Source: Calothrix membranacea FACHB-236 (lineage in GTDB: Bacteria; Cyanobacteriota; Cyanobacteriia; Cyanobacteriales; Nostocaceae). From it: a DNA stretch of 64,000 bases. The stretch spans positions 1 to 64,000 of the forward strand of contig NZ_JACJPX010000008.1 in NCBI RefSeq assembly GCF_014696315.1, in the 5' to 3' direction. Under the pieces are notes generated by a model, which saw only the letters and a list, made by a program, of their open reading frames with translations, had not been told where the DNA came from and made no database searches. The position numbers were made by a program, and so were the translations under genes. This document shows, piece by piece, positions 5,499-40,140 of the stretch. Position 1 is the stretch's first letter, and each line of letters starts with the position of its first letter.

Positions 5499-8135
5499 CT
5501 ACTTATAGCCTATAGGGATCTCAATCATAAATTTTGTACCTTGTCTGGGTATAGATTCACACCACAATTTACCACCATGCTTCTCTGTAACAATTTGATA
5601 GCTGATTGATAAGCCCAACCCAGTACCTTTGCCTACTGGCTTTGTCGTAAAGAAGGGATCGAATAGACGTTGGCAAACTTCTTCTTTCATTCCAGGGCCA
5701 TTATCGGCAATACAAATCCGCACTCTGTCACTGTGAATTACCTCTGTCTGAATCGAAATAGTGGCGACTCTTTCTTGATTGCCATCTTCCAGCGCATCGA
5801 TCGCATTACTGATAATGTTCATGAATACCTGATTTAGCTGCCCAGCATGGCATTCTACCAGTGGTAAATTACCATATTCCTTGATAATTTTAATTTCTGG
5901 GCGTTGTGGATGGGCTTTTAATCGGTGATGCAAGATGGTAATAGTGCTGTCAATACCATCATGGATATTAACATCTTTAACTTCCGCTTCGTCTAAGCGT
6001 GAGAAGTTTCGCAAGGAAAGTACAATCTCCCGAATCCTGTTAGTACCCAAGCGCATGGATTGGAGAACTTTAGTCAAGTCTTCAATAAGAAATTCTAGAT
6101 CCATCGATTCGATTGCAGCTGCAATTTCTTGCGGTGGTTGGGGATAATGCTGCTGATAAAGTTCTACTAAATTTAATAAGTCATAAGTATATTCACCAAC
6201 ATGGGTGAGATTGCCATGAATAAAGTTAACAGGGTTATTAATTTCGTGAGCAACACCCGCTACCATTTGACCTAGGCTGGACATTTTCTCACTCTGAATC
6301 ATCTGGAGTTGGGTTTGTTTCAATTCTTGCAGGGTTTGCTCAAGTTCCTGGGTTTTTTGCTGGAGTGTGATTTCAGCTTGTTTGCGTAAGCGAAGCTCGT
6401 CGTAAACTTCGCTTAAATCTCGCAGAATACCTTGCAATCCAATAACTTTACCATCGGCATCCTTCATTGGTGAAACATTCGAGGTAACCCATCCCCAAGT
6501 TCCATCCGGTTTCGGATGGCGAAACTCCATACCTGCACCACTCTCACCTGTGGCAATAATTTGATTGAGGAAGTCTGTCACCTTGGCTAAATCATCGGTA
6601 TGAATTAAAGGTGTAAAGGAGCGATTTAACCATTCACAAACTTCATAGCCAAAAATATCCCGAAACTTAGGAGAAATATAAGTCAGGGTACTATCTAAAT
6701 GAGAAGTCCAAATCACATCATTGGCACCTTCGACAAGGTTACGGAACTTAGCTTCGCTTTCGGCAATTGCAGCTTCGGCTCGCTGGCGTTCGCTGATGTC
6801 CCTAATTACTGCTAAGGCATGAATTTTGCCATTGTAAAGACATGGAGTTGCTCTAACTTCCACATTAAACGGCGTGCCATCTTTACGTACATCTACAGCT
6901 TGAATACTAATTTCACGACCAGCTGTAATAGTGTGAATAAAGTCTGATAACTGTGGCAGACTATCTGGATGAATAAAGTCTTGAGCTTGAAGTTGAGTAA
7001 ATTCCTCTTGGGAATAGCCATGCATTTTACAAACTGCATGATTGGCGACAATAATTTTTCCCATTTCCAAATCGACGATGTTAATTCCATCACTAACATT
7101 TTCAAAAATCGTGCGGTAAAGAATTTCTTGCTGCTCTAGTGCGCTTTGAGCTTGTTTGTGCGCTGTAATGTCGGTTGCCGTCACGACAATTTGATGAATG
7201 CGTGAAGTACTATCTCTTAAGGGTGTGACGCTCAACGACCACCAAGTTTCTTGATCGTCAACACAGAAATGCTCTTCAAAATAATTAGTTTTTCCAGATT
7301 GGACAGCCGCCAAATAGCGTTGACGGTAGAGGTTCGCCATATCACTAGAGAAGGCTTCTGCCAAGGTTTTACCTAAAAGGTATGTCATCGATACCGCGTT
7401 ATTACGGGCGATCGCTGAGTTGTAGTTTGCAAACCGGAACTCTGCACCATCATCTAATACATCCAAAACAAAGATGCCATAGTCCACGCCCTCCCAAACA
7501 CTTTGCAAAAGCTGTTTTTGCTCTAAAAAACGCTGTTCTGTAGATTTGCGATCGCGAATATCACGGCTGATGGTTGCCAAACCTATAGGCTGGTTGTTAG
7601 TGGGATCTTTGACAACAAACAGAGTAAAATCCACTGGAATCAGCTCTGCAGTCACGAAATGGCAAAATTGGAATTCACTGTGCCAATATCCCTGCTGCAT
7701 CACAGTTGGTAAAATTTTTTGGAGCAGTTCTTCTTGATCTTGGGAAATTAAAAACTCGCTGATGTGTTTAGTTTTAGCTGACTCAATATCTTTTAGCCCC
7801 ACTAATTCTAATCCTGCGGGGTTGATGTAGAAGGGTTGTCCCGCCAAAGAAGCAATACCAATAAAGTCAGCACTAGCTTCTAGAATTGTTTTCAAAACTT
7901 GGTGTTCTTCCATTACTTGCCCAAAAAAGCTTAGGGGAAGCCCGTCGTAGGCATCGCTTTCTTGCTGTGCTGCTAAATCTGGGCTGGCTGACTTTTGCCG
8001 GTGTGCCAACTCTTGCTCTAATTGTGCTACTCTCTGGCGCAAGGTAATTAGTTCTAAGTTCAGGCTTGCATCGCTCTCGGTATCTAGAACTATTTTGTCT
8101 GTAGGCATTTCATTGTTGGCAGAAAGCTGAGTCAT
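5499..8135 (-). CDS. Four-PAS soluble sensor histidine kinase
   Basis: An 878-residue protein with no membrane segment. An N-terminal coiled coil (about 25-55, LRQRVAQLEQELAHRQ) is followed by four PAS domains (about 72-195, 205-325, 335-450 and 458-580), each ending in a D-I-(S/T)-(E/D)-R/H type PAC motif. A long coiled coil (585-625) leads to a HisKA of the SEKMSSLGQMVAGVAHEINN type, with the phospho-acceptor His near 640. The HATPase has N box NIISNAIDAL, DNGPGM and GTGLGLSISYQI boxes, and ends at 878. There is no receiver domain, so a separate response regulator must accept the phosphate; none is adjacent. The signal is unknown; PAS domains suggest redox, light or a small ligand. Confidence 0.9.
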   Translation of the reverse strand: MTQLSANNEMPTDKIVLDTESDASLNLELITLRQRVAQLEQELAHRQKSASPDLAAQQESDAYDGLPLSFFGQVMEEHQVLKTILEASADFIGIASLAGQPFYINPAGLELVGLKDIESAKTKHISEFLISQDQEELLQKILPTVMQQGYWHSEFQFCHFVTAELIPVDFTLFVVKDPTNNQPIGLATISRDIRDRKSTEQRFLEQKQLLQSVWEGVDYGIFVLDVLDDGAEFRFANYNSAIARNNAVSMTYLLGKTLAEAFSSDMANLYRQRYLAAVQSGKTNYFEEHFCVDDQETWWSLSVTPLRDSTSRIHQIVVTATDITAHKQAQSALEQQEILYRTIFENVSDGINIVDLEMGKIIVANHAVCKMHGYSQEEFTQLQAQDFIHPDSLPQLSDFIHTITAGREISIQAVDVRKDGTPFNVEVRATPCLYNGKIHALAVIRDISERQRAEAAIAESEAKFRNLVEGANDVIWTSHLDSTLTYISPKFRDIFGYEVCEWLNRSFTPLIHTDDLAKVTDFLNQIIATGESGAGMEFRHPKPDGTWGWVTSNVSPMKDADGKVIGLQGILRDLSEVYDELRLRKQAEITLQQKTQELEQTLQELKQTQLQMIQSEKMSSLGQMVAGVAHEINNPVNFIHGNLTHVGEYTYDLLNLVELYQQHYPQPPQEIAAAIESMDLEFLIEDLTKVLQSMRLGTNRIREIVLSLRNFSRLDEAEVKDVNIHDGIDSTITILHHRLKAHPQRPEIKIIKEYGNLPLVECHAGQLNQVFMNIISNAIDALEDGNQERVATISIQTEVIHSDRVRICIADNGPGMKEEVCQRLFDPFFTTKPVGKGTGLGLSISYQIVTEKHGGKLWCESIPRQGTKFMIEIPIGYK

Positions 8136-8375
8136 ATCTTTGAAACCGTAGCGTATTTGTTATTCTGAACGCGATACGTAAACTTACTCTAGGTTTCCCA
8201 CGGATGAGTTCAGTTAAACAAAAACTGTCATATTCTGCCAAATTCCTAAAATAGCCGTGCTGAATTGTGTGGTGATTGCATATAGCGTTTCCCTGATAGG
8301 GACACAAAATTTTGCGCCCCTACGATGAGCTTTACTTTACTCCCATGCAATCTGCTGTAGTTACTAATTGGTAAT

Positions 8376-8506
8376 TAAGTAAGTCCGTGGAAATAAACCC
8401 AACTATGTTTAGAAACGTAAATAGGTTTGAAATCCTTACAAATGACAAATGACTAAGGACAAATGACAGCCTCAGCCAGTTATCTTTAATTTCGCCGACC
8501 TACTTA
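8376..8506. mobile_element. MITE-like element, family 1, copy A
   Basis: A 131-base element. Left end TAAGTAAGTCCGTGGAAAT; right end, read on the other strand, TAAGTAGGTCGGCGAAATT. The inside holds heptamer-like aatgacaaatgac. It ends 6 bases beyond the sdhA stop codon. Copies B (11435) and C (54371) share both ends and the cctcagccagttatcttt core. No coding capacity. Confidence 0.7.
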
Positions 8507-8512
8507 CCTTGA

Positions 8513-10240
8513 CTAATATTTTCTTTCCTGCGGCTGAAACATGTTAATCGCGACAGGGCGATATTGAATATCAATCCCGGCTGGTGAATAATAAGCCATT
8601 GTGTGTTGGAGGAATTTCTCATCATCTCTATTGGCATAATCTTCACGGAAATGTGCGCCACGACTTTCTTGACGATTTAATGCAGAGGCGAGAATTGTTT
8701 GCCCTACTACCATTAAACTGCGTAATTCTAGGGCTTCCACAATTTCTGTATTCCAGGAATTACCTTTATCATCTAAATATATCTGTGGATATTGTTGTTC
8801 TAATTCTGCTAATTTCTCTAAACCTTGACTCATTAATTCTTCAGTACGGAAAACGCCGCAGTACTGAGTCATGGTATCTTGGAAAGCTTGGCGAACTTCG
8901 TTAATGCGGTATTTTCCAGGCTGTTCTAGTAAAGCTTGAATTTCTTGCTGCGCTTCTTTGATGTAACGTTGCTCATCTACTATGGGTAATTTGCGATTTT
9001 GCACAAAATTGGCGATCGCAGATCCGGTTCGTTTACCATAAACTACGCACTCTAACAGCGAATTACTACCCAAGCGATTCGCACCGTGGACAGAAACGCA
9101 AGCTGTTTCACCAGCCGCAAAGAAGCCATCCACAAAATTTTCACCGCTACTGCGGACTCGACCATCAACATTTACAGGGATACCACCCATACAATAATGA
9201 ATGGTTGGACGTACAGGCATGGGCTGAGTCACAGCATCCACACCAACTAAGCGATAGGCTTCTTCCCAGCAGAAGGGAACGCGACTCATGATTTTTTCTT
9301 TACCCATGTGGCGCAAATCCAGATAAACAAATGGCCCGCCTGCACTGCCATCATGATGGATACCACGCCCAGCCCTTATTTCGTATGCGATCGCCCTTGA
9401 GGTAATATCACGAGGAGCCAGTTCCATACGGCTAGGTGCATAGTTTGCCATAAAGCGATCGCCTTCGGAGTTAATCAGATATGCGCCTTCACCCCTGACT
9501 GCTTCAGAAATCAGTACACCCACCGGATATAAGCCAGTCGGATGGAATTGCACAAATTCCATATCTTCTAAAGGTAAACCTGCGATCGCCGTCATTGCTA
9601 AACCGTCACCAGTGGAGGCGTAATCATTAGATGTGGTGTTATAAACGCGACCATATCCCCCTGTGGCAAACATCACAGCTTTAGCTCGCAGCACCTCTAT
9701 ATGCCCATCCAACAGGCGGTACATTACTACACCTTTAGCTTGTCCCTCCTCCAGAATCAGCTTCATCACGTACCATTCTTGGTAAACTTGTACACCATTA
9801 CGGCGTAAGTTATTGACCAATTCATGCAAAATCGCGTGACCAGTTTTATCTGCAGCGTAGCAAGTCCGGTTGTGGGAATGTCCACCAAACGCCCTTTGAG
9901 CAATGCGTCCATCCGGTAAGCGCGAGAACAGAACACCCATGTGTTCCAAGTCAATCACCACATCCGGCGCTTCTTGAGCGAGGATTGCTACCGCATCTTG
10001 ATCTGCTAAGTAATCAGAACCCTTAACAGTATCAAAGGCGTGAGCTTCCCAACTATCTTCAGTATCAACATTTTTTAGTGATGCAGCCATCCCACCTTGC
10101 GCTGCAACCGAATGCGAGCGAATTGGGTGAGTTTTCGCAACCACAGCAATATTTAAACTAGGGTTAATGCGGGCAATTTCCACCGCCGCACGGCATCCTG
10201 CCAAGCCGCCCCCAACAATAATTACATCATGTTCTAGCAT
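8513..10240 (-). CDS. sdhA: Succinate dehydrogenase/fumarate reductase flavoprotein subunit
   Basis: A 575-residue protein. FAD Rossmann motif at residues 6-16 ([10 protein letters not shown]); [14 protein letters not shown] near residue 43 contains the His that carries covalent FAD in this family; [11 protein letters not shown] and the catalytic [13 protein letters not shown] segment near residue 390 are intact. It oxidises succinate to fumarate at the membrane face and feeds quinone or the iron-sulfur subunit. As is common in cyanobacteria, the iron-sulfur and anchor subunits are not adjacent. The ATG start fits the family N-terminus exactly. A repeat element abuts its stop codon. Confidence 0.93.
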
Positions 10241-26500: not shown

Positions 26501-28559
26501 TAAATTGCTAGAAGCAGAAACTCTCCAAAGACAAGAACTTGAAGGTGCTCGCAGTCAAGCTGAGTTGGCATCTCAAGCTAAAAGTGCTTTTTTAGCAAAC
26601 ATGAGTCACGAAATTCGTACCCCGATGAATGCCGTTTTGGGGATGACTGGTTTGTTGTTAGACACAGTTTTAAATGCAGAACAGCGAGATTTTGTGGAAA
26701 CTATTCGCATTAGTGGCGATGCTTTATTAACTTTAATCAATGAGATTTTGGATTTATCCAAACTAGAAGCGGGGGAAATGGTTCTCGAAACTCTAGACTT
26801 TGATTTGTCAATCTGTGTGGAAGAAGTAATCGATTTGTTAGTTCCCCAAGCCCATACTAAAGGCATAGAAATGGGGGCATTAATACAACGCGATGTTCCT
26901 ACTTACCTCAAAGGGGATGCTAGCCGTCTGCGACAAATTTTGATGAATTTACTCAGCAATGCTATCAAGTTTACTAGTAAAGGTGAGGTTCTAGTCCGAG
27001 CAGAACTAGAATCAGAAACTCCAACTACAGCTACCATCTATTTTGCGGTTACAGATACAGGTTTGGGTATTTCCATTGAAGACCAAAGCAAACTTTTTAC
27101 TCCATTTACCCAAGTGGATGCTTCCACTACCCGTAAATATGGCGGCACAGGTTTAGGGTTAGCTATTTGCAAACAGCTAGTAACTTTAATGGGGGGAGAA
27201 ATAGGGGTAGAAAGTCAGCTTAGTGAAGGCTCAAAGTTTTGGTTTAGAGTGACGTTTGCCAAGCAAATCCAGCCTGTCGCACCAATTAGCGATCGCGGGT
27301 TTTTAAAGAATCGCCGTTTATTAGTTGTGGATGATAATGCTACTAATCGTAAAATTATCTACCATCAAGCTACCCGTTGGGGAATGCAGGTAGATACAGC
27401 CGACTGTGCAGCAGCTGCCTTCAGTGCTATACAAAAAGCTTATCAGCAGTCACAGCCTTATGATATTGCTTTGATTGATATGCAAATGCCCGACACAGAT
27501 GGTATGAGTTTAGGAGCAAAAATTAAAGCCAATTCTGCCATTGGTGAGATACCTTTGATTATGCTCACCTCTACTAGTCAACGGGATGAAGTGAGACAAT
27601 CACTGCAAATAGGATTTGCTGCTTATTTAGTCAAGCCTGTGAAGCCATCTCGCCTCTTAGATACTATTATGAATAACTTAGGAACCGGGACAGAAACTCA
27701 TAATTTTGATAATTCAGAAGTTACAAAAATGTCAAATTCTGTGCAACCCGCTCAAACTAAAGTTGCTAGTAAATCTCAGTTAAGAATTCTGCTAGCTGAA
27801 GATAATCTCGTAAATCAGAAAGTCGCTATCAAACTATTGCAAAGCTTAGGCTACAGCGCGGATGTGGTTGCTAATGGTCAAGAGGCACTGGAAATATTAG
27901 AAAAAGTTCCCTATGACTTAATTTTTATGGATTGTCAGATGCCTGTGCTTGATGGATTGGATGCCACAAGACAAATTCATCGTTTGCCAGAAACCGCCTT
28001 TGCTAGCCGTCGTCGTCCTGTGGTGATTGCGATGACTGCTAATGCGATGAAAGAAGATAGACAAAAGTGTCTTGATGCTGGTATGGATGATTATTTGAGC
28101 AAGCCAGTAATTAAAGACAAACTAGCAGCAATGTTAGACCATTGGGGAAGTATGATTTTGAAAACACAGGATACTGTGGTTTGTAAACCTGAAGCGACGA
28201 CCACAGACACTAATCCACTGGCTTTACTAATTGATTGGGAACACCTGCATCAACTTTCAGAAGATAATACAGAATTTGAATTTGAACTATTGGAAATTTT
28301 TGTGGAAGATACTTATACTCATTTAGATATTACGAAAGCCGCAATCGAAAATAACGACTTTGAACAACTAGCACAAGAAGCTCATCATATCAAAGGTGCT
28401 AGCGCCAATGTGGGAGTTACAGCTATGCGCCGAGCCGCAGAACAATTAGAACAACTAGCTCACGACCAAGAACGCAGAGGTACTGCTAAGTTAATTGATG
28501 ATTTAACGAAATATATTAGCCAAATTCAAGCCTTTTTAAAAACCCAAAATCATCAATAA
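23514..28559 (+). CDS. Giant hybrid histidine kinase: GAF-CHASE3-PAS-PAS-GAF-GAF-HK-REC-REC-HPt
   Basis: 1681 residues. GAF (about 20-165), two membrane helices (about 190-212 and 372-392) bracketing a CHASE3 sensor, PAS-PAC pairs (about 405-530 and 540-660), GAF domains (about 675-810 and 835-985), HisKA with [15 protein letters not shown], an HATPase with [10 protein letters not shown] and [15 protein letters not shown]1 ([10 protein letters not shown] ... ALIDMQMPD), REC2 (ILLAEDN ... [12 protein letters not shown]), and a C-terminal HPt with [12 protein letters not shown]. The phosphorelay is complete within one chain, so HPt output probably goes to a separate regulator; the REC-PP2C gene next door is a good candidate. 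The first start is TTG; an ATG at 23538 gives [10 protein letters not shown], the usual N-terminus of this GAF type. The 3' end overlaps the opposing anti-sigma gene by 7 bases. Confidence 0.93.
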
Positions 28560-28969
28560 TATTTACTAATAAATAAACAGTAACGAGCATCCTCTGTTTG
28601 CTCGTAAGTTAACTTATCAGCAATCTCCGACATAATTTTTAAGCCGCGTCCACGATCTTGATCATTATCTTCAAATTCTGACACTTCTTTTAATTTTTGC
28701 TCTAAATCGAAAGCTGGGCCTTTCGACAAAATTCTGATTTCTATATTGTCGCTTAACCGCACAGCTTCTAATTCAATAGGTGTTTCTACAGGTAGATTTT
28801 TGTGTGCATGTTCCACAATATTAGCAAAGCCTTCTATAAGCAAAGTTTGGCATTGCCACCAGATTTTGGCATCGGCAATTGGTGGTTTATTTATCTGCTC
28901 AAACCACGATAAAACCTGTGCAGAATTATTCAGATCTGTATCAACTTTGAGATAAATTTTATTATCCAC
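28553..28969 (-). CDS. RsbW-like anti-sigma factor Ser/Thr kinase
   Basis: 138 residues, a single GHKL ATPase domain. N-box-like [15 protein letters not shown] (about 50-64), a G1-like ILSKGPAFD (about 95-103) and [14 protein letters not shown] (about 120-133) match the RsbW/SpoIIAB family. These kinases phosphorylate a STAS antagonist and release their bound target when it is dephosphorylated. Transcription converges on the hybrid kinase gene, with 7 bases of 3' overlap. The divergent neighbour is a PP2C phosphatase and the next gene is a STAS protein, which completes a partner-switching set. Confidence 0.88.
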
Positions 28970-29132
28970 TGTTACTTTAACCTGTAAAATTTATTGATTA
29001 CATTAAGTAAAAACTAAAACTAGTAATTTTTATATTTTATTATATAATATTTAATTACAGTTTTCTTGGTTAAGATAAGTGCGAATCTTAATTTCATCCA
29101 CAATGAAATATGAGTTTATTTAAATAAGATTT

Positions 29133-30323
29133 ATGTTTAAAATTCTGATTATCGATGATGATCCCATAGTGCGGATAGCGCTAAAAAGAACACTGCAAAA
29201 TCAAGGTTACGATACTACAACAGCTAGCGATGGAGAAGAAGGAATCGCACTAGCGAAAAGCTTAACTCCTGCTCTAATTATATGTGACTGGATGATGGCG
29301 AAACTGGACGGAATAGAAGTCTGTCGTCGCATCAAAGCCGATCCAGAATTAGCGACTACTTTTTTCATTCTCTTAACAGCTAAAGGTGCATCTCGTGGAG
29401 AAGAAAAAGATAGAGTTTTGGGATTAGATGCGGGTGCAGATGAATTTGTCTCCAAGCCAATCGAGATGAATGAACTAAAGGCCAGAGTTAGAGCGGGGTT
29501 AAGGCTACATCAACTAAATCAAGATTTGCAAACTCAAAAACAGGCTTTAGAGCAACTCAATCAAAATTTGCAAACTCAAAAGCAAATTTTAGAAGCAGAA
29601 CTAGCTGAAGCTGCTGATTATGTGCGATCGCTTTTACCATCGCCAATGGTGGGAACAGTCACAACAGAAGCTTTGTTTGTCCCTTCAGCACAATTAGGCG
29701 GCGATTGTTTTGACTACTACTGGCTAGATGATGAGCGTTTAGCGATTTATCTGATGGATGTATCAGGACATGGGGTGGGTTCAGCACTATTATCTGTATC
29801 GGTGGTGAATGTGTTGCGATCGCAGTCTTTACCCAACACAAACTTTAGTCAACCAAAAGAAGTACTTTACGCTCTCAATCAAGCCTTTCCCATGAGCCAT
29901 CATAATGATAAATACTTTACCATCTGGTATGGAGTTTATGATCGCTCAAAACGTCAGCTAGTCTACGCAAGTGCTGGACATCCACCCGCAGTATTGTTAT
30001 CTGGTACAGATACAACAGACATTAGTGTGAAACAGCTAAGTTCTTTAGATCTACCCATTGGCTTTGTCCCTGATGTGGAGTTTGAGGATGCAACTGTGGA
30101 AATCTCTGCTCACAACAGTTTATACATTTTTAGTGATGGTGCTTACGAAATTCATCAGCCAAATGGTCAGCTTTGGGGTATTAATGCTTTTATTGAATTG
30201 TTAATCAAATGTAGCAATGAGAAGACCAATGAGCTTCAGCAATTATTAGCGCAGCTTTTGTCTTTAAATGCTCAAGAAAATCTAGAAGACGATTTATCTT
30301 TGCTGAAGATAAGCTTTAGCTAA
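29133..30323 (+). CDS. Response regulator with SpoIIE-type PP2C phosphatase (RsbU-like)
   Basis: 396 residues. REC domain (1-125) with DDD at 8-10, phospho-acceptor Asp52 and KPIE around 108. A coiled-coil linker contains a near repeat of LNQDLQTQKQALEQ / LNQNLQTQKQILEA (about 129-155). The PP2C/SpoIIE domain (about 170-396) has FVPSAQLGGDCFDYY, LMDVSGHGVGSALLS, YASAGHPPAVL and YIFSDGAYE, so its metal-binding acidic residues are present. It should dephosphorylate a STAS antagonist when the REC domain is phosphorylated. Divergent from the RsbW-like gene and convergent with the STAS gene. Confidence 0.93.
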   Translation: MFKILIIDDDPIVRIALKRTLQNQGYDTTTASDGEEGIALAKSLTPALIICDWMMAKLDGIEVCRRIKADPELATTFFILLTAKGASRGEEKDRVLGLDAGADEFVSKPIEMNELKARVRAGLRLHQLNQDLQTQKQALEQLNQNLQTQKQILEAELAEAADYVRSLLPSPMVGTVTTEALFVPSAQLGGDCFDYYWLDDERLAIYLMDVSGHGVGSALLSVSVVNVLRSQSLPNTNFSQPKEVLYALNQAFPMSHHNDKYFTIWYGVYDRSKRQLVYASAGHPPAVLLSGTDTTDISVKQLSSLDLPIGFVPDVEFEDATVEISAHNSLYIFSDGAYEIHQPNGQLWGINAFIELLIKCSNEKTNELQQLLAQLLSLNAQENLEDDLSLLKISFS

Positions 30324-30452
30324 CTTAGCAGCTTGGCGCAAAATTCAAAAATCTCTAATTCAGGGTTTTGTGCTGCTGACAAAAGTGTATTTATTTACGC
30401 CAACCTGTAATAATCAAATTTGTATATATACCCCAATCAACTCTGAAATATT

Positions 30453-30785
30453 TCATTGTACTGACAATACCTGGCGTTGAAATTCTTCACGATCGGCAAA
30501 GTTTTGAATAATTCTATCTACTTTAGTTAGTTCAAATAACATTTTGACTTGAGAGCTAGCAGAACAAACAAAGAGTTTGGCATTAGCATTGCGTACTATC
30601 TGCATCGCTGAGACTAAAGCTCCTAACCCAGAACTATCAATAAAGCTAACGTCTTTTAGGTCAATCAATAAAACATCTAATCCTGCTTGCCTAGCTACAA
30701 TGTCGCTGACCTCACGACGCAATTGATTACCCCTAATAGCATCTAAAATACCCGATGGCTCTATTATCGTTAATTTGATTTTCAT
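30453..30785 (-). CDS. STAS-domain anti-sigma factor antagonist (first copy)
   Basis: 110 residues, one STAS domain. VSFIDSSGLGALVSA contains the serine pair Ser51-Ser52, the site of phosphorylation in SpoIIAA/RsbV. It should be phosphorylated by the RsbW-like kinase at 28553 and dephosphorylated by the REC-PP2C at 29133. It lies 129 bases from the phosphatase stop (convergent). It shares the QLRREV, DSSGLGAL and QMLFE(L/M)TK(V/M)D type motifs with the second STAS gene at 39820. Confidence 0.92.
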   Translation of the reverse strand: MKIKLTIIEPSGILDAIRGNQLRREVSDIVARQAGLDVLLIDLKDVSFIDSSGLGALVSAMQIVRNANAKLFVCSASSQVKMLFELTKVDRIIQNFADREEFQRQVLSVQ

Positions 30786-31073: not shown

Positions 31074-33083
31074 TTAAGATTTTTTTGATGGTTTCCAATA
31101 AGAAGCGTGAATTACTGACCAAAGAAGTGATAGGTTATAGGTAGCCCAAAGACCATTGAGCAGATAAACCAAAGGATAATCTAAGTTACCAGTGACAAAG
31201 CGATATAGACTCCATAGCATTCCTAAAATACTCAAAATAAACATGAGTAATTGCGGCCAAATTAGTTTAAAGTAGATACCTGACTGCCGTTCTTTTGGTG
31301 TAACTTTAAATTTGATTGCTTTTCCAGAAAAGACACTCCAAACTGCTTGGATCAGCAGGGGGAATATTGCGATCGCATATTGTTCAGAACGCCAGATCTC
31401 TCTAGCTGGTATTCCCCAAGCTGCTGACAGAAATGTCAGCCTATTCATGACAAAAGCAGGGAAAAAATGTAAGGCGAAATCATAACCCTGTGTTTCCACA
31501 GGTATTAATCCTGTAAAGAAATAGATAATAGGGCAAGAAATAAAAACAACTGTAGAAAACCCAGCAAAATAGCTATACATTGTTTTAAAGTAATGCAGCT
31601 TTTGCCAAAATGTAAGTCCAGCTTTGGTTAAGGGATTTTCTCTGACTAATACTTGAATAGTTCCTTGAGCCCAGCGCAGTCGTTGTTGCAGAGTAGAACT
31701 CAAATCTTCTGGTGCTAAACCTTCTGCTAAAAGTTCATGGTGATAAATAGATTTCCAACCAGCACTATGTAACCGCATGGCGGTATTCATATCTTCTGTA
31801 ATACTTTGGCTAGATACGCCGCCAATCAATTCAAATTCATCTAACCTTTTTTCATCTTTGGCATATTCATCAGCAAAATATTGTAGTCCGACACTAATCA
31901 GCGCTTCTCTTCTCAATACAGCATTAGTTCCTGTATAGAAGGCTGCATTCATTCCATCTTTACCTTGTTGTAGCGGCCCATAAAATAAATTGGCTCGATG
32001 TCCAAAGGGATCGTTGTCAGGAAGATTATAAAAACCTTGGGGTGTCTGGACAAAGGCAATTTTGTTCGGCTCATATTTGCCACCAAACAGATTGTAATTA
32101 TAGAAATATGGCAAAACACGCTTGAGAAATTGTGGTTGAGGAATATGATCTGCATCTAAAGTTAAAATAAATTCCCCAGCTGTTTCACCAGAAAAAATAG
32201 CATAATTGAGGTTACCAGCTTTTGCATGATGTGAAACACCGGGTTGTTTAGGACGCGCGATGTAGCGTAATCTAGCCAAATCACCCAATTCTAATTCCTT
32301 TTGGTGAATAGCTTTTTCTAAAAATTCTTGCTCAGTAATCAGGCGTTCTTTTAAACTTTTTTGAGCAGAATTATGCTTTTGATTATGAGGGCTAAAGTCA
32401 AGAATAAATTGCCGTAAGCTTTGTAAAAATGTTGTGCTAGTCTCTTGAGCTTGATTATCTTCTGGAGATAAATTTTGTAATAATTCTTCCGCGTTTAACA
32501 AATTAGGTTTCAAAGTTTCTAATTCTTGTAACTGCTCCATCAAAGCCGAGCGCACAACGTCAATTTTCTGAGCTTCTTGTTGCAGTAATGGTGACTGTAA
32601 ATCTTGAATACATAGACTTTCTGACATAGCTCGCATCTGGAGCGAGTTACCATCATCTAATATGTACACTCGGAGCTTGTTAGGAGGATAATCTATATTT
32701 AAAGCGGCTCTGGCAGTTGCTTCTACAATTTCTGTTGGCTCATTGTAACAAGCGATAAATACATCTACATTAGGCCAATTAGATATTGTTAAAGGAGGCG
32801 TTAATTGATCAATAGACTTAATCTGCCTGACCAAAGGTCTCCACAATCCTACGACAAACATCATACCGCCGAGATAGCTATAAATTTCTGCAAATAACAA
32901 CGGTAGAGATAGCCACAGAGCATCAAAGTTGATGGAATGGGTGATGCGCCATTGCAAATACCAAGCACCAAAAATTAAATTTATTTCTGCTAAATAACGG
33001 AATATTAGCGTTCTTTTTTTGAGAGTAGAACGGCTATTACCCGGAAAATCTGAGGAACTGTCAATAAAAGATACGGAGGTCAT
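31074..33083 (-). CDS. Cellulose-synthase-like family 2 glycosyltransferase
   Basis: 669 residues, an integral membrane protein. Two N-terminal helices (about 25-85), a cytosolic GT2 domain and C-terminal helices (about 500-665). GT2 motifs in order: FIACYNEPTEIVEATA, LDDGN, LTLDADHIPQP (DxD), SITEDMNTAMRL (TED) and QQRLRWAQGT (QxxRW), the processive synthase set. An insertion of about 130 residues between LDDGN and the DxD is coiled-coil and Gln/Glu-rich. No PilZ domain follows the QRLRW, so c-di-GMP would not bind as in BcsA. It is the last gene of a leftward cluster with three DUF3131 genes, 19 bases from the nearest. I infer synthesis and export of a beta-glucan-like exopolysaccharide; the sugar is unknown. 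Confidence 0.9.
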   Translation of the reverse strand: MTSVSFIDSSSDFPGNSRSTLKKRTLIFRYLAEINLIFGAWYLQWRITHSINFDALWLSLPLLFAEIYSYLGGMMFVVGLWRPLVRQIKSIDQLTPPLTISNWPNVDVFIACYNEPTEIVEATARAALNIDYPPNKLRVYILDDGNSLQMRAMSESLCIQDLQSPLLQQEAQKIDVVRSALMEQLQELETLKPNLLNAEELLQNLSPEDNQAQETSTTFLQSLRQFILDFSPHNQKHNSAQKSLKERLITEQEFLEKAIHQKELELGDLARLRYIARPKQPGVSHHAKAGNLNYAIFSGETAGEFILTLDADHIPQPQFLKRVLPYFYNYNLFGGKYEPNKIAFVQTPQGFYNLPDNDPFGHRANLFYGPLQQGKDGMNAAFYTGTNAVLRREALISVGLQYFADEYAKDEKRLDEFELIGGVSSQSITEDMNTAMRLHSAGWKSIYHHELLAEGLAPEDLSSTLQQRLRWAQGTIQVLVRENPLTKAGLTFWQKLHYFKTMYSYFAGFSTVVFISCPIIYFFTGLIPVETQGYDFALHFFPAFVMNRLTFLSAAWGIPAREIWRSEQYAIAIFPLLIQAVWSVFSGKAIKFKVTPKERQSGIYFKLIWPQLLMFILSILGMLWSLYRFVTGNLDYPLVYLLNGLWATYNLSLLWSVIHASYWKPSKKS

Positions 33084-33102: not shown

Positions 33103-34575
33103 TTAAAAAATTAAGGAACGTTTTTTTCTAGCTTGATAAATCAGACTTTCTAAAATTACAGCGTTAGTATTAACATCTAAGGAATTATTAATACCTAACT
33201 CTTGATTTTCATACTTGCCCGTGAAGTAGCCATTATTTAAACTAGCTAAATTTTGGACAGCATCTCGCAGCATTTTTGTGTAGGGATCATCTGGCATGAG
33301 TGCATACCAAGAAAATGCGGCTTTAGTGCTGAGAAATCGCAAGTGAGGATAATTTTTTTCACTAACACTAATAGCTGGCCAAGTTACTCCATTGGCATAG
33401 ACACTGTAATAAAGAAAATAAGGTGGACGATCCAAAGAATCTTCATTGACAGCAGTTAAAATATTGGTGCGCTTAAACCTTTGTACTTGGACTTTGAGAA
33501 GATTTTCGGCTTGAGCTTTAATTGCATCTGTCCAACCTATTTCTAATCCCAATAATAGATAAGGGTCATTTGTTAAGTAGTTACTAGCCCCAGAATTTTT
33601 GAAATTTCGCCTGTCAATTTGTAAGCTAATACCATCTACTTGCACTTTGTCCGTTGGGGGATGAGCAAGAGCTTTAGTAGCTTGGATATTCCACAGCTTT
33701 AAACTATGAGCAGCGTATTGTTCATAGCCTAAACGCCCCTCTTGTACCTCACGAATTTTCCCCTCAGATGTGGGAACACCGCCATTTAACCAACCATCCT
33801 TAACTAGTTTGGTTAACTTCCAGCCAGTAACAATACCATTAATGCGATCGCTATACTCGGGATAATGCGATCGCAAAATATGCAATGCTAATAAAAATCT
33901 GGCTAAATCTAAAGCAGACCAACCACTCTTACCCTCTGGATCGGGAGTATTGTTGAGTTTTCGCATTTGAGCAGTACTGGTGCTATAGGCTTTATTGGGC
34001 AAACCTGTAGCTGGTAGAGGTAGCGTTTCTAGAGTCCTCAGTAAAGTGTTGATGCGTTCCCGAAATACATCCGTTGATAATAAATTTAATTGTCGAGCCG
34101 CAACAATTCCTAGTAAAGCACTACCTTGATCCCACCAAGTCGTCCAAGCTATGTTGTGAGATGAATTAACTAAACCTGTTTGTGGATTCCAATTGCGTTC
34201 AAAATATTTCCAAGCACGTTGAGCAGCAATTAAATCTGCTTCTCTAGTCAATCGGGGTTGAGAGATATTTTCAGTCGGGATAACAGTTTTTTTCGGAGTA
34301 GGTGTAGGCTTTGGCGCAACTAATGGCGGACTGATTGTAGGGTCTGGAGAAGGAGGTAACCCCTCTACAGGCGTAGTAGATTCTGTATTCTGGGGGTCAG
34401 GATTAAAGTTATCAGGGGCTGCAATAATCAAAGAGGGAGAACATTGCCATACCTCTGTGACACACCCTGAAATTTGCCGATTGAGTTCTATATACAGAGC
34501 TGATTCCAGAATCACATTATTTATCCCTGTTAAATCAGTTGCTCTATTGCTTAGAGCTTGATTGAAGTTTGCCAA
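33103..34575 (-). CDS. DUF3131 protein, apparently truncated at the N-terminus
   Basis: 490 residues from a TTG start. The DUF3131 domain spans about 115-490 (RAWKYFERNWNPQTGLVNS, WWDQGSALLGIVAARQLN, GWSALDLARFLLALH, GRLGYEQYAAHSLKLW). A Pro/Thr-rich linker precedes it. The first 30 residues (LTGINNVILESALYIELNR) match the terminal motif of a DUF3131 domain (compare LTANNNGVILESLLYK), and readable similarity seems to continue upstream of the TTG. There is no signal peptide, unlike its two neighbours. It is probably the remnant of a two-domain protein that has lost its 5' part, or it is expressed without export. DUF3131 proteins are thought to be all-helical (alpha/alpha)6-type sugar-active domains. 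Confidence 0.82.
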   Translation of the reverse strand: MANFNQALSNRATDLTGINNVILESALYIELNRQISGCVTEVWQCSPSLIIAAPDNFNPDPQNTESTTPVEGLPPSPDPTISPPLVAPKPTPTPKKTVIPTENISQPRLTREADLIAAQRAWKYFERNWNPQTGLVNSSHNIAWTTWWDQGSALLGIVAARQLNLLSTDVFRERINTLLRTLETLPLPATGLPNKAYSTSTAQMRKLNNTPDPEGKSGWSALDLARFLLALHILRSHYPEYSDRINGIVTGWKLTKLVKDGWLNGGVPTSEGKIREVQEGRLGYEQYAAHSLKLWNIQATKALAHPPTDKVQVDGISLQIDRRNFKNSGASNYLTNDPYLLLGLEIGWTDAIKAQAENLLKVQVQRFKRTNILTAVNEDSLDRPPYFLYYSVYANGVTWPAISVSEKNYPHLRFLSTKAAFSWYALMPDDPYTKMLRDAVQNLASLNNGYFTGKYENQELGINNSLDVNTNAVILESLIYQARKKRSLIF

Positions 34576-34670
34576 GTATAGTTCACTACTCCAATTTGCA
34601 CATTTAAATTTAGAGATTTGTTATCAATTTATACATAAAAACTAGCTAATGAACACCAGGAAATTATGGA

Positions 34671-34818
34671 GTTGGGGACTGGGGACTGGGGACTGGGGAC
34701 TGGGGATTGGGGATTGGGGATGAGGGAGATGAGGGAGATGAGGGAGACAAGGGGAGAAATCCTTATTACCAATTACCCATTACCTATTACCAATTACCCA
34801 TTACCAATTCCCCATCCC
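34671..34818. repeat. Facing heptamer tandem arrays (GGGGACT and ATTACCC/ATTACCA)
   Basis: About six GGGGA(C/T)T units, three GAGGGAGAT units, then about eight ATTACC(A/C) units ending at the stop codon of the 986-residue gene. The array occupies the place where the missing 5' part of the neighbouring DUF3131 gene would be expected. Confidence 0.75.
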
Positions 34819-37779
34819 CTACTTAGACGGTACCGCTAACAGATTCTCTAGTTTTTGTTCGCTCAAGTTGATGGTGTCGCTACTGTTGGAAACCCAGTAT
34901 TGGCCTGAGGTATTAGAAATAAATCTAGATGTCTGCTTAGGTGCGCTAGGTAAACCGTGACCAGAATCTCCTTCGCCGATCGCTTTCCACCAAGGCGAAT
35001 TCATGGCGGTATCGGGGCGAATTAAGGGTTGCTGCTTGGTTACTTTATACAGCAAGGATTGCAGAATCATACTATTGGTGCTGCTAGTAAAACCAAGGGC
35101 GATTTTGCCAGTTTTCTCGTAAAAACCCTCATGGAATCCAAGTAGAGGATTATACACATCAGTTGCGGCAGTCAGTAATTCTTGGGCATATTTATCGTCT
35201 GGTAGCAGGGCATTATAGGCGAATGCAACTGCCGAACTTACCAATCGCCCATCTTCTATGGGTTTGCCATCATCACCTAAAGCTGCCCAAGGTTGTTCAT
35301 TCCCGATAATTGTGCTGTGAACGGTATAGGGTTGACTATCGAGTAACGTGGTTCCAGAGGCGGTAAGTTTACCTGTGATGTTGTAGCGTTCAGCTTGTGC
35401 TTGGAAAATTGGTGTAAATAGCGATCGCATTTGCGGATCTAGACCAAATTCTAAGGCGTAAAGCAAGAAAGGATTGCTGACTGTATATTGATTTGTTTTT
35501 AAGGTGCTATCTGTTCTAGTACGGGCAATTGGTATTTGAACGCCCTCTACTGTTGCAGTTTTATATTGACCGCCAACAGCAGAGCGATCAACATCAAATC
35601 CCCACAATTGGAAAGCACGTGCAGCATATTCCTCATATCCTAAGCGGGTTTCTGGCTTCACCCGGGGAAGCGATCGCCCTTTTGTATCTTTAATGGCGGT
35701 AGCGCTGGAAATTACACCGTTGCGTACTATCCGTAAGTAAGACCAATCAAGAACAATTTGATCTACAGCTGCTGTATATTCTGGATGGCAAGTTTTCAAG
35801 TTATATAGAGCTGCGAGCATCCGTCCTACATCTAAAGCCGACCAGCCATTGCCATCTGCAACTGGATTTGCACCATAATCTATGGGTTGTAGTGTGCGTG
35901 TATCGTAACCTCGGTTGGGTAATTCACCAGCAAACAAAGGCATCTGTGCGATCGCCGCTAATAATTGCCGAGTACGCTGATCGAACTCTTTTGGCTTGAT
36001 TATATCCAGTGCTAAAGCAGCATGGAGTGCGGCGAGATAATCTCCCAATCCCCAGAAAGTTGCGCCAGGGACATCAGCGCGATCGTTCACCAACCCATTT
36101 GCAGATTGTAAATTGGCTTGGAAATATCCCCAAGCTGCCTCAGCATAGCGTTTTTGGGTGACTGTTAGGGGTTTTGCCGGTACTGGATAGGATGCTGGTA
36201 GAGGATTTCCTACTGGTGGAATAGGTGCAACTGCAACTATTTCAGCATTTGAGCTGGAATTACTAGGCTTCTTGCCTGTAGAGGGACGATTGCTGGGTTT
36301 TGTACCTGTAGAGGGTGGATTACTAGGATTTTTAGTTGTGGAGGGTGGATTACTGGGATTTTTACTTGTAGAGCTTGAGTTACTGGGATTTTTGCCTGTA
36401 GAGGCTGGAGTATTGGCATCAGGATCTATTGGTGGCGATTTCGATGGTGATGCGGGAATAGTTACTCCACTCGATCCAATTAAAGGGCGATTACCTCTAG
36501 CTTTGTAGTATAAAATCTCCAGAATTAGCCCGTTGGTGTTGCCTGTCAGAGATTTGTTTGGTTGTTTAGTTTCCTCATATAAGCCAGCATAAAAACCACC
36601 CTTAGGACTATACAAATCCTTGACCGCATCAAAAACTTTCTGAGCGTAGGTATTATTGGGATAAAGATAACGCCAGCCAAATGCAGCCTTAGTACTGATG
36701 CTACGTAACTGTGTATAGGGCTTATTTTTTTCTGTAATGGTTGCCCAACTCACACCATTAGAATAAATAGTATTGTAAAGAAAATAAGGAGGTTGATCGA
36801 TGTTATCTTCTGAGACAGCAGTTAGCTGTCCTGTTGAGTCAAAGCGACGCTTTTGTACTTCTAAAACTCTGGCAGCAAAGTCTTTTAAATATCCCTCTAA
36901 ACCAAATTCGATACCATCTAAAATATATGATTCACTAACTACATAATTGTTAGCGTTGGTTTTTTGAAAGTCACGTGTATCAACAGGAATTTGTATACCG
37001 TTAATCTCGACCATTTTATATGGTTCTAAAGCTACAGCTTTGGGTGCTTTAAATCCCCAAAGTTCATAGCCCCGCACAGCATATTCTTCATAACCGAGTC
37101 TTCCTTCTTGTACCAACAGGGTATTTTTATTAGGTAAAACAGCAGCACCAAATAGTTGACCATCTTTGAGCGATCGCGCTAACTGCCACTTGGCTAAAAC
37201 TCCTTTGATCCAATCTTTATATTGAGGATGGCAAGTACGGATCACATGAAATGCCGCAAGTAAGCGACCAATATCTAAAGCTGACCAACCAATACCTTTT
37301 TCTACTGGTTTATTCGTGTAATCCACTAATTGTCCTGTGGCAGCATGGTAAACTTTATTTGGTAAAGCACCTTCAAATAATGTCAGTTTCCCCAGTCCAG
37401 TGAGGAATTTGTTCATTTTCGAGTCGAATTCAGTTTGGTTAATTAAATTGATCCAACGTGCTGTATTTAACGCCATCAAATAATTCCCAATATCCCAAAG
37501 GGTGCCTGAAGGATATCCACCAGTCGAATTAGCAAAACCTGTTGCTGGCTGGTAATTTTTTACAAAATACTCCCAAGCAATCTTGGCATAATTTTGTTCT
37601 TCAGGTGTGAGTGGATTAGGGAGACTACTACAACTATTAGCACTACCCCCACCTCCACCTCCACTATTAGGTTTTTGCGCTATAGCTACAATTGGTAGAT
37701 AAAATAAAAATTGCAAAAATGTGCCAATGAGAAAGAATGCAATCGCTCTCATTAGCCTTTTTTTATGGCGTTGCAGCAT
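34819..37779 (-). CDS. Secreted protein with two DUF3131 domains
   Basis: 986 residues. N-terminal signal peptide (AIAFFLIGTFLQFLFYLPIV, residues 13-32) followed by a Gly-rich patch. DUF3131 domain 1 (about 55-430) ends LTGNTNGLILEILYYKARG. A repetitive Ser/Pro/Asn/Lys linker with units of about 10 residues (KNPSNPPSTT) spans about 440-530. DUF3131 domain 2 (about 565-930) ends FTSSTNSMILQSLLYK, and a 55-residue tail follows. Both domains keep the GWSALD(I/V)GR and GRLGYEEYA-type segments. The two-domain build shows what the truncated neighbour may once have been. It begins 32 bases after the stop of the next DUF3131 gene, so the two share an operon. Confidence 0.85.
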   Translation of the reverse strand: MLQRHKKRLMRAIAFFLIGTFLQFLFYLPIVAIAQKPNSGGGGGGSANSCSSLPNPLTPEEQNYAKIAWEYFVKNYQPATGFANSTGGYPSGTLWDIGNYLMALNTARWINLINQTEFDSKMNKFLTGLGKLTLFEGALPNKVYHAATGQLVDYTNKPVEKGIGWSALDIGRLLAAFHVIRTCHPQYKDWIKGVLAKWQLARSLKDGQLFGAAVLPNKNTLLVQEGRLGYEEYAVRGYELWGFKAPKAVALEPYKMVEINGIQIPVDTRDFQKTNANNYVVSESYILDGIEFGLEGYLKDFAARVLEVQKRRFDSTGQLTAVSEDNIDQPPYFLYNTIYSNGVSWATITEKNKPYTQLRSISTKAAFGWRYLYPNNTYAQKVFDAVKDLYSPKGGFYAGLYEETKQPNKSLTGNTNGLILEILYYKARGNRPLIGSSGVTIPASPSKSPPIDPDANTPASTGKNPSNSSSTSKNPSNPPSTTKNPSNPPSTGTKPSNRPSTGKKPSNSSSNAEIVAVAPIPPVGNPLPASYPVPAKPLTVTQKRYAEAAWGYFQANLQSANGLVNDRADVPGATFWGLGDYLAALHAALALDIIKPKEFDQRTRQLLAAIAQMPLFAGELPNRGYDTRTLQPIDYGANPVADGNGWSALDVGRMLAALYNLKTCHPEYTAAVDQIVLDWSYLRIVRNGVISSATAIKDTKGRSLPRVKPETRLGYEEYAARAFQLWGFDVDRSAVGGQYKTATVEGVQIPIARTRTDSTLKTNQYTVSNPFLLYALEFGLDPQMRSLFTPIFQAQAERYNITGKLTASGTTLLDSQPYTVHSTIIGNEQPWAALGDDGKPIEDGRLVSSAVAFAYNALLPDDKYAQELLTAATDVYNPLLGFHEGFYEKTGKIALGFTSSTNSMILQSLLYKVTKQQPLIRPDTAMNSPWWKAIGEGDSGHGLPSAPKQTSRFISNTSGQYWVSNSSDTINLSEQKLENLLAVPSK

Positions 37780-37811: not shown

Positions 37812-39284
37812 TTAGGGAGATTTTTTGCTAGAAGAACGCCCTGATTTTACCCCTGCCCAAACTGTAAGTGGCTTGCCTACATGCTTATAAAGCAAACTCT
37901 CAAGAATTACACCATTATTATTAGCAGTTAGAGAAGTATTTGGCTGCTGTAAATCTTCGTAGAAACCGTTATACCAACCTTTCTCAGACTTGAGATTTTT
38001 TTGCACAAAATCAAATAATTGACGAGTGTAAGCATTGTTATAAAGTACATGCCAGCCGATCGCGGCCTTGGCACTGAGAAACCGCAAATTATTGTGTTTT
38101 TCTTGAGTTTCGGTTATGGTTGCCCACGGTTCACCATTCACAAGCAAGCTGCTGTAAACAAAGTAGGGAGGACGGTCTAGGTTATCTTCGGAAACAGCTG
38201 TTAATTGTTTTGTGTTGTGATAACGAGCTTCTTGCGCGGCTAAAACTCGATCTGCATAAGCTTTGGGTAAAGCTTGAAATCCAGTTTCAATCCCATCAAG
38301 AATATAAGGCTCGCTCAAAACATAGTTATTGGCTCCCGAATTTTCGTAGTTACGCTGGTCGAAGGGTACACCTTTACCGTAAAGATTGGCAAAGGCAACA
38401 TCAGACTGATAATCTAAGGCTTCATTGACATCCAAACCCCACAGTTTTAAACCATAGGCGGCATAATTTTCATAGCCTAAGCGTCCTTCTTGGTTGTATT
38501 GTTCCTTACCTTGGATAACGCTTGTACCATACATTTGCCCGTCTTTAGTCAGACGTTGAACGTGCCAATGCTGCCAGACAGCATCAGACTTGGATTTTAA
38601 CTCGGGATATTTTGCCCCTACAATCTTGAGCCAGATTGCCATCCGTCCCAAATCAATAGCTGACCAGCCAACTTCTGCTTTTTTATCTATTTGACCGTAT
38701 TCTACGGGTTCTAGAGTTTTAGAGTTGTAAGCTTTGTTGGGCAGTTCCCCCTTATATAAAGGCAAAGATGCTAGAGTTTCTAACATTTTGCTCATTTTGA
38801 GTCCAAAATCTGTGACAGATATAAAATTGAGTTCTCTAGCTGTGATCAACGCGGCGATCGCTGATGCTTGATCCCACATTGTTACATAAGTTAATCCGTC
38901 AACAGAGTTTACCAAGCCCGTTTCTTTGTTCCAATTACGTTGGAAGTACAACCAAGCTTGATGAGCAGTCGCAATGTCCCAAGGGGTTAATGCTCCTACT
39001 CCAGGTGCAACATAAGGAATTGTATTGACTGTCACCTGACTAGGAATCACAGGTGTACCGGGCAATACTAAAGATTGGGCATCAAGTTTGGCAATTGCTT
39101 GTGCTGCTTTGCCATTTGTATCAGAGTGAGAAGTTGAAATTTCAGTTTTAAGCACAGTATCAGTACTAGTTAGCTGCTTAGATAAATAATTTAGACTAGC
39201 GATAGCGATTATAGCTGTAACAACCCCTCCCACGGAAGCTAATAAAGATAAGCTTTTAGGTGGTGGTTCAAAATCATGTGTCAT
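37812..39284 (-). CDS. Membrane-anchored DUF3131 protein
   Basis: 490 residues. A single N-terminal membrane helix (about 10-32, LSLLASVGGVVTAIIAIASL) with a short cytoplasmic start indicates a signal anchor. A 70-residue linker leads into one DUF3131 domain (about 105-475: AHQAWLYFQRNWNKETGLVN, GWSAIDLGRMAIWL, GRLGYENYAAYGLKLWG, LTANNNGVILESLLYK). It is the first gene of the leftward cluster, so its upstream region (39285 on) should hold the promoter for the DUF3131-GT2 unit. Confidence 0.85.
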   Translation of the reverse strand: MTHDFEPPPKSLSLLASVGGVVTAIIAIASLNYLSKQLTSTDTVLKTEISTSHSDTNGKAAQAIAKLDAQSLVLPGTPVIPSQVTVNTIPYVAPGVGALTPWDIATAHQAWLYFQRNWNKETGLVNSVDGLTYVTMWDQASAIAALITARELNFISVTDFGLKMSKMLETLASLPLYKGELPNKAYNSKTLEPVEYGQIDKKAEVGWSAIDLGRMAIWLKIVGAKYPELKSKSDAVWQHWHVQRLTKDGQMYGTSVIQGKEQYNQEGRLGYENYAAYGLKLWGLDVNEALDYQSDVAFANLYGKGVPFDQRNYENSGANNYVLSEPYILDGIETGFQALPKAYADRVLAAQEARYHNTKQLTAVSEDNLDRPPYFVYSSLLVNGEPWATITETQEKHNNLRFLSAKAAIGWHVLYNNAYTRQLFDFVQKNLKSEKGWYNGFYEDLQQPNTSLTANNNGVILESLLYKHVGKPLTVWAGVKSGRSSSKKSP

Positions 39285-39819: not shown

Positions 39820-40140
39820 ATGAGTTATGCAATCAAAATTTTTCATCCATCTGGCATTTTTAATGGAATTCAAGGTAATCAACTGCGTAGAGAAGTTAAC
39901 TCTGCTGTAGGCGATGGTGCTGAAATTGTCTTGATTGACTTGGCTAGTGTAACGCTAATGGATAGCTCTGGCTTAGGCGCGCTCTTGTCGCTGCTGAGGA
40001 CAATGAGAGAGTCAGGTGCTAAACTCTTTATCTGCTCGGTGAGTGAGCCTGTACAGATGCTGTTTGAAATGACAAAGATGGACAGTGTTTTTGATACTTT
40101 TTCTAATCAGGATGAATTCAACCGCGCGATTCTTACATAG
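39820..40140 (+). CDS. STAS-domain anti-sigma factor antagonist (second copy)
   Basis: 106 residues, one STAS domain with VTLMDSSGLGALLS; the serine pair is Ser49-Ser50. It is clearly paralogous to the STAS protein at 30453: both have SGI(L/F) near residue 11, GNQLRREV at 19-26 and QMLFE(L/M)TK(V/M)D. Two antagonists on either side of the polysaccharide genes with only one RsbW-like kinase suggest competition or two inputs. It is followed 142 bases later by a pentapeptide-repeat gene. A GGGGATT tandem repeat touches its stop codon. Confidence 0.92.
   Translation: MSYAIKIFHPSGIFNGIQGNQLRREVNSAVGDGAEIVLIDLASVTLMDSSGLGALLSLLRTMRESGAKLFICSVSEPVQMLFEMTKMDSVFDTFSNQDEFNRAILT

Follow-up and report, generated by a model that had tools for sequence, protein, structure and literature searches.

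The D3 gene in the window (the whole 64,000-nucleotide stretch of DNA analysed here) is best read as what was once domain three of an exported ancestor, D1-D2-D3, and became a separate gene by an old fission in the ancestry of the Nostoc-type cyanobacteria, a reading to which we assign a probability of roughly 0.77. The fission appears old and common to the Nostoc-type loci compared, not a recent 5' loss, because outgroups keep D1-D2-D3 together while these loci are split. As judged by sequence comparison, the first ~20 residues of D3 descend from a DUF3131 tail, specifically from the last helix of D2, and we call this stretch the scar. The neighbouring D2 has retained its tail, which is thus found twice at the locus. 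D3 is a full-length DUF3131 domain (PF11329; E = 1.9e-145, ~485 bits against a curated cut-off of 20.3, profile positions 2–366 of 367), and four of the five DUF3131 domains in the whole genome lie at this locus, where the minus strand is transcribed in the order Dsingle, D1-D2, D3, GT2 (Table 1). The nearest protein-level matches, N. carneum (91%) and N. linckia (90%), point to a Nostoc-type cyanobacterium. Loci of relatives are cited below by L numbers.

Table 1 Features of the DUF3131/GT2 locus in the window.
Feature	Position	Strand	Basis or remark
D3 gene, reading from the probable GTG start	33103..34515	-	470 aa, one DUF3131 domain, N-terminal scar and Pro-rich linker
D3 DUF3131 domain	33127..34227	-	PF11329, 485.8 bits
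Scar, putative D2 tail remnant, codons 1–24 of D3	34444..34515	-	HMM of 18 N-termini; Cys pair in 17/18
Probable leader, formerly taken as codons (TTG at 34575)	34516..34575	-	1-nt gaps in L038 and L057; no in-frame upstream start in five relatives
GTAN8TAC box, NtcA-like	34576..34589	-	In six related genomes, window included
Spacer tandem repeats (heptamers and related units), incidental	34673..34815	.	GH26-like gene here in several relatives
D2 tail in the two-domain neighbour, counterpart of the scar	35020..35070	-	Residues 910–926 of the stop-to-stop ORF
D1-D2 gene, 986 aa	34819..37779	-	Signal peptide-like N-terminus
Dsingle, 490 aa, DUF3131	37812..39284	-	Hydrophobic N-terminal segment
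GT2 cellulose-synthase-like glycosyltransferase	31074..33083	-	Pfam PF03552, E 3.1e-40; under the CelA equivalog cut-off

By translation, the DUF3131/GT2 genes are flanked (28553–30785 and 39820–40140) by RsbW-type ATPase-, response regulator-phosphatase- and STAS-like genes. A SpoIIE-type phosphatase gene is also found near the Pantoea and Paracoccus DUF3131 clusters, together with STAS and ATPase genes in Paracoccus. The GTAN8TAC box above D3 agrees with the NtcA consensus given in the abstract of PMC3898017, and its inner bases vary among the six genomes. Because the window holds 18 GTAN8TAC sites where 10.25 are expected, a single one means little.

An earlier note on this DNA had described D3 as a 490-codon open reading frame starting from TTG at 34575 (33103–34575, minus strand) and containing LTGINNVILESALY within its first 30 residues, which is correct. 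Its statement that D3 lacks a signal peptide while its neighbours have one also stands: the maximal 10-residue hydropathy of D3 is 1.41 from the GTG at 34515 and 1.35 from the TTG, whereas D1-D2 reaches 2.57 and Dsingle 2.62 (throughout, hydropathy and inspection by eye served to recognise export-type starts). The protein itself probably starts not at the TTG but at the GTG and would then have 470 aa, because several features of the relatives agree on this position. Of 20 sequences, the window among them, 18 have a start codon at the site corresponding to 34515 (GTG in 11 and ATG in 7), and the two without one are L047 and L103. The possibility, raised in the earlier note, that the orthologues all begin at the same TTG does not hold, since outside the window this codon is found only in L036 and L037. 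No ATG, GTG or TTG lies in frame above the GTG in L038, L057, L042, L048 and L049; there are 1-nt gaps between TTG and GTG in L038 and inside the TTG in L057, and L057 (G005) has two stop codons right above the place of the TTG. With a GTG start, the LTGINN encoded below the TTG would be leader and not protein; its counterparts are LIGLNN (L036, L037), LVRINR (L038) and LARINR (L057). A ribosome-binding-like AGGG is located at 34525–34528 in the window, and AGGG or AAGG precedes the GTG by ~8–10 bases in several relatives. The TTG may serve as a start in the window, L036 and L037, and in Nostoc loci with a GH26-like gene an ATG right behind the GH26 stop, eight codons upstream, is a second start candidate. 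Seven more divergent loci (L052, L056, L095, L097, L100, L102, L104) have no start at the hand-set place of 34515 and start upstream. Translation of D3 would thus re-use as its start the codon of the old D2 helix methionine, which is ATG, or GTG in the lineage of the window.

The earlier note had seen a closing motif shared with both neighbouring DUF3131 proteins. For residues 1–40 of the TTG frame this is true of the Dsingle tail (score 49, 0/1000 shuffles) but not of D1-D2 (score 32, 11% of shuffles), and the Dsingle match depends on residues upstream of the GTG that differ in sister genomes. Similarity was also thought to continue upstream of the TTG, but the 35 residues before the GTG (15 above the TTG and 20 below) are at chance level (18% and 63% of shuffles). 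Read from the GTG, the first 24 residues of the window protein are likewise at chance against D1-D2 (score 25, shuffle maximum 41, z 0.4), as are L036 and L037 against their own D2 (z 0.4–0.6 across the three). The other 13 of the 16 genomes in this same-genome test, which left out 4 of the 20 sequences with D1-D2 on the other strand or not given, reach z of 3.8 to 11; overall, 11/16 beat all 300 shuffles, and the best match falls on the D2 tail in 16/16.

The origin of the scar is most visible in a profile of its orthologues. When 18 orthologous N-termini are built into an HMM and compared with 2778 ORFs, in which some loci are represented twice, D3 N-termini rank first and D2 tails next, the best D2 tail at 4.9e-7 (L101 fused protein) and many others at 1e-6 to 1e-4, with the D2-tail match running on to QQPL. 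D3's own C-terminal tail is found at 5e-4 in two loci (L042, L108), Dsingle tails reach 0.04 at best, and D1 tails give no match among the 2778 ORFs. When the window, L036 and L037 are left out of the HMM, the D2 tail of the window is still found at 1.5e-6, and its D3 N-terminus only at E 1.5, in the correct place. Because of this value and the z of 0.4, the scar in the window is recognised by orthology and not by its own letters. At the nucleotide level, 41–45 of 60 nt are identical between D2 tail and D3 start in six Nostoc genomes, and 30 of 60 in the seventh, L049. The longest D2 remnant on a split D3 measures ~20–30 residues.

In the D3 structure model, the domain's own equivalent of the scar is the last helix (model residues 448–462), so the scar amounts to roughly the latter half of one helix of the barrel. 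Docking of the scar on the D3 barrel was set aside as an idea, residues 1–83 of the model being below pLDDT 50. Two N-terminal cysteines, at residue 17 or 18 and at residues 24–27, are found in 17 of the 18 D3 proteins, and 15 of the 18 have no other Cys; in the window, the first conserved Cys lies within the scar and codon 25 encodes the second. In the D2 tails compared, the first position is never Cys and mostly Arg, and the cysteine pair was therefore probably gained after the split. The D3 of N. flagelliforme (L046, 7764–9362) carries a ~45-residue insertion behind the scar, and the second cysteine is absent. In a MAG (L050:3466–5574), a deletion has taken out the scar and joined GH26 to D3 in a single ORF, which could be an assembly fault.

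The undivided gene is found in more distant relatives. Of 25 relative loci, three have D1-D2-D3 in one ORF (L054, L055, which is cut by the contig end, and L058) and two are without D3 (L059, L060). D3 matches in 388 class genomes (E ≤1e-130) lie in ORFs of at least 860 aa in 10 of 21 cases, and those in 388 order genomes (E ≤1e-160) in 3 of 16, the two genome sets sharing three genomes. L106 has a complete D1-D2-D3 gene. L105 (reverse complement, 6204–9125) has a signal peptide-D2-D3 gene that stands alone, as the 14 kb covered contain no further match to DUF3131, GH26-like genes or GT2. Among the Nostoc, Anabaena, Fischerella and Calothrix loci with D3 that were compared, D2 and D3 never occur in one ORF, and D3 is split in 5/5 of the other same-genus genomes with a close orthologue; two further genomes have none. 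Hence the intact longer orthologue that the earlier note had suggested looking for exists, as D1-D2-D3 in outgroups and as signal peptide-D2-D3 in L105, but not in the close relatives compared, which are all split.

A tree of D3 (50 rows and 4 D1 outgroup rows, from a quick search with 15/51 inner branches open) covers D3 only, and not D2. A single clade of the 14 fused rows is rejected (p-AU 9e-42), and the tree requires no fewer than 8 changes between fused and split. A branch with support 92, below the program's mark of 95, has on one side 23 split rows of Nostoc type and Aliterella/Gloeocapsopsis type: the 18 of the HMM, L047 (scar weak by HMM, 0.014), L052, L095 and L097 (scar by eye) and L050 (scar deleted). 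Grouping 28 rows by adding L100, L102, L103, L104 and L056 is weakly rejected (p-AU 0.02; 0.135 without L056), and outside the 23 the HMM scores the scar at 7e-6 in L102 and 3e-3 in L100 and L104. Because of this weak rejection, more than one fission or transfer is possible. One fission is likely for the Nostoc-type group, and further events are likely elsewhere. D3 is split off without a scar, and by eye without an export signal, in L108, L110, L111, L112 and L113, and L107 and L109 have signal peptide-like starts. In L108:7860–8010 and L113:7840–8000 (reverse complement), the D1-D2 and D3 frames differ and overlap at a run of ten A in the linker. Run length alone fails to explain this split, because the related L069, which is fused, also carries a run of ten A in the stretch scanned, as does L070; the frame break may be a sequencing error, a recent mutation or slippage.

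The gap between D1-D2 and D3 holds a GH26-like gene in nine loci (L039, L040, L041, L043, L045, L046, L049, L053, L094), although the copy is broken in L041 and the L045 protein reaches 20.1 bits against the Pfam cut-off of 20.2. The gene is also found in the gap in L095, L100, L102 and L104, in pieces or partial in L100 and L104; in all, many relatives have it either between D1-D2 and D3 or directly before D3. GH26 is gone from L051, in which the DNA before D3 resembles the upstream region of GH26 in L043 (82% over 45 nt, E 1e-7). The clade of the window lacks GH26 here, the spacer of the window holds no GH26 relic (best E 0.36), and the window's genome has a GH26, 55% identical, elsewhere. 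The heptamer arrays that the earlier note had placed where the lost domain would have been are present in the spacer (34673–34720 and 34765–34815), where many relatives have the GH26-like gene; the heptamers are incidental and say nothing on the event.

We propose that the D1-D2-D3 locus was duplicated in tandem and that the copies then decayed in a complementary way, one losing D3 and the other losing D1 and most of D2. Such decay would have left the GH26-like gene between D2 and D3, and GH26 would later have been lost in the clade of the window. Tandem duplication followed by complementary loss would explain together why the D2 tail is doubled and why GH26 is found where it is. A two-copy intermediate is absent from the 25 and 20 loci compared and the window, some loci being counted twice. 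The monkey-king gene family of Drosophila has reportedly undergone gene fission by duplication and complementary partial degeneration. The likeness lies in complementary fragments of one ancestral gene, with an overlap stretch kept in both; unlike monkey-king, the D3 case is bacterial, has a GH26-like gene between the fragments, and comes without sight of the duplicated intermediate.

Alternatively, D1-D2-D3 could have been interrupted by insertion of a GH26-like gene that duplicated the D2 tail beside it, so that no locus duplication was involved. This is possible but on the whole doubtful. The scar is short, and the GH26 stop is directly before the D3 frame in L039, L040, L041, L043, L045, L046, L049 and L053, both of which fit an insertion. 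However, in L054, whose locus is of the fused type, GH26 lies at the 5' end ahead of Dsingle, and in L109 it forms one gene with D1; because of these positions it is not clearly a newcomer to the locus. Furthermore, the N-terminus in L103 is weakly scar-like although GH26 is absent from the part of this locus that was covered. Two related ideas were rejected. A GH26 leader fused to D3 finds no match in the clade of the window, though it is true of L051, and stop-codon readthrough from GH26 into D3, considered because several Nostoc loci have an in-frame stop right before D3, is possible but unsupported, the frames differing in L047, L095 and L100.

On the reading of D3 as a domain split from D1-D2-D3, the enzyme would have lost its export signal. 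D3 is a full-length DUF3131 domain, yet unlike nine DUF3131 proteins of Pantoea, Paracoccus and Vibrio it starts with a piece of a second domain and without an N-terminal export segment. By eye, all nine start with a membrane segment, a signal peptide or a lipobox-like sequence, and hydropathy is 2.73–3.52 in six of them; extracytoplasmic location is a property seen in DUF3131 relatives and no part of the Pfam definition. It is conceivable that the N-terminus of D3 is a weak or unusual export signal that resembles a DUF3131 tail by convergence. Besides the proteobacterial starts, the hydrophobic N-termini of L052, L095, L097, L100, L102 and L104 (hydropathy 2.2–3.25 from upstream starts) fit this idea. 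We nevertheless consider it improbable, as the HMM picks out D2 tails specifically and its match reaches QQPL, and the N-terminus in the window lacks hydrophobic character, with acidic residues in its helix. A different and more tentative thought, which we regard as rather unlikely, is that the scar is now a working N-terminal module, made of the half helix, the Cys pair and a stretch resembling IIAAP(D/N)NFNP, and that it stands in for the signal peptide that was lost. Its route may be non-classical export, a disulfide to D1-D2 or GH26, or, in some lineages, a true signal sequence. The hydrophobic versions of the N-terminus in L095, L097, L100, L102 and L104 fit a change from scar to signal sequence.

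The earlier note had interpreted the tail-like N-terminus as the outcome of a two-domain gene losing its 5' half; on this view the loss would be recent and confined to this strain, and the heptamers would mark where the deletion occurred. A start within a DUF3131 tail and an origin in a longer multi-domain gene are upheld, and the signal peptide-D2-D3 gene of L105 speaks in favour; a strain-specific loss and a two-domain ancestor are not upheld, and neither the TTG start nor the similarity above it nor the heptamers count as evidence. The same split is found in all same-genus orthologues (5/5) and in every Nostoc, Anabaena, Fischerella and Calothrix D3 locus compared, distant relatives have it with GH26 and not heptamers in the gap, the undivided gene of most fused relatives has three domains, and D2 is intact next door. 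A recent loss is hence very improbable. In sum, the observation was largely right and its interpretation half right.

Selection was estimated from pairwise Nei–Gojobori sums, which give non-independent values. The dN/dS of the D3 domain is 0.14–0.17 in all three groupings (0.15 in the clade of the window), and for D1-D2 two groups, of 7 and 5 genomes, give 0.145 and 0.149, which indicates purifying selection on both. The scar (residues 2–20) has a dN/dS of 0.31 over all 18 sequences and 0.58 in the clade of the window, and the linker 0.43–0.65. The scar thus appears moderately constrained and, in the clade of the window, no more so than the linker. The absence of a signal peptide-like N-terminus could suggest that D3 is a pseudogene decaying without its former export signal, but this is barely credible, as the dN/dS of 0.14–0.17 suggests a working domain and the cysteine pair is kept in 17/18. 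Both an undivided gene in relatives and selection on both fragments, as in gene fission, are found here.

The predicted fold of D3 offers a hint at what it does. Its closest matches, the top 13 entries with Z 26–32 over 324–343 residues, are bacterial SGL-clan chains or Bacteroides 'putative glucoamylases', followed by GH162 of the same clan (Z 22.6) and by other families at 22.5 and below. Identity to the closest folds is ~10–16%, and Foldseek E values go down to 1.6e-9. The model has the (alpha/alpha)6-barrel of the SGL clan, a fold near GH144, GH162 and GH189, and thus matches beta-1,2-glucan enzymes best. Against the PDB, the single D3 protein sequence finds nothing below E 0.22, and a profile of 11 DUF3131 domains finds 8wy1, a glucan synthase, at 3.6e-5, a weak and partial match over 88 positions. 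A passage of PMC12102758 names E239, F286 and Y367 of XcSGL as conserved in the SGL clan; DUF, Pfam and 'cyanobacteri' do not occur in its main text. An attempt to place the catalytic residues by way of L118, a cyclic glucan synthase from a cyanobacterium, was abandoned because the alignment was not significant (hhalign E 0.24 and 0.44). L118 is a frame of 2926 codons that includes a cyclic glucan synthase-like domain (PF10091), present in 1 of 60 cyanobacterial genomes searched. In the part of the literature covered, few papers name DUF3131 and none was found on its function. By analogy, D3 probably processes a beta-glucan made by the neighbouring GT2, a role that rests on the fold and on the weak, partial profile match; we favour a picture in which three to four extracytoplasmic DUF3131 domains process the GT2 product.

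D3 is a readable case of bacterial gene fission, in which the start codon re-uses an old helix methionine. The order of events can be read from the sequence because a fragment of one domain stayed attached to the other at the break. The case raises the question of how an enzyme without a visible export signal stays under strong selection in a family whose members examined elsewhere are exported. It also hints at a role for DUF3131, which may carry out beta-1,2-glucan-type chemistry beside a cellulose-synthase-like enzyme.
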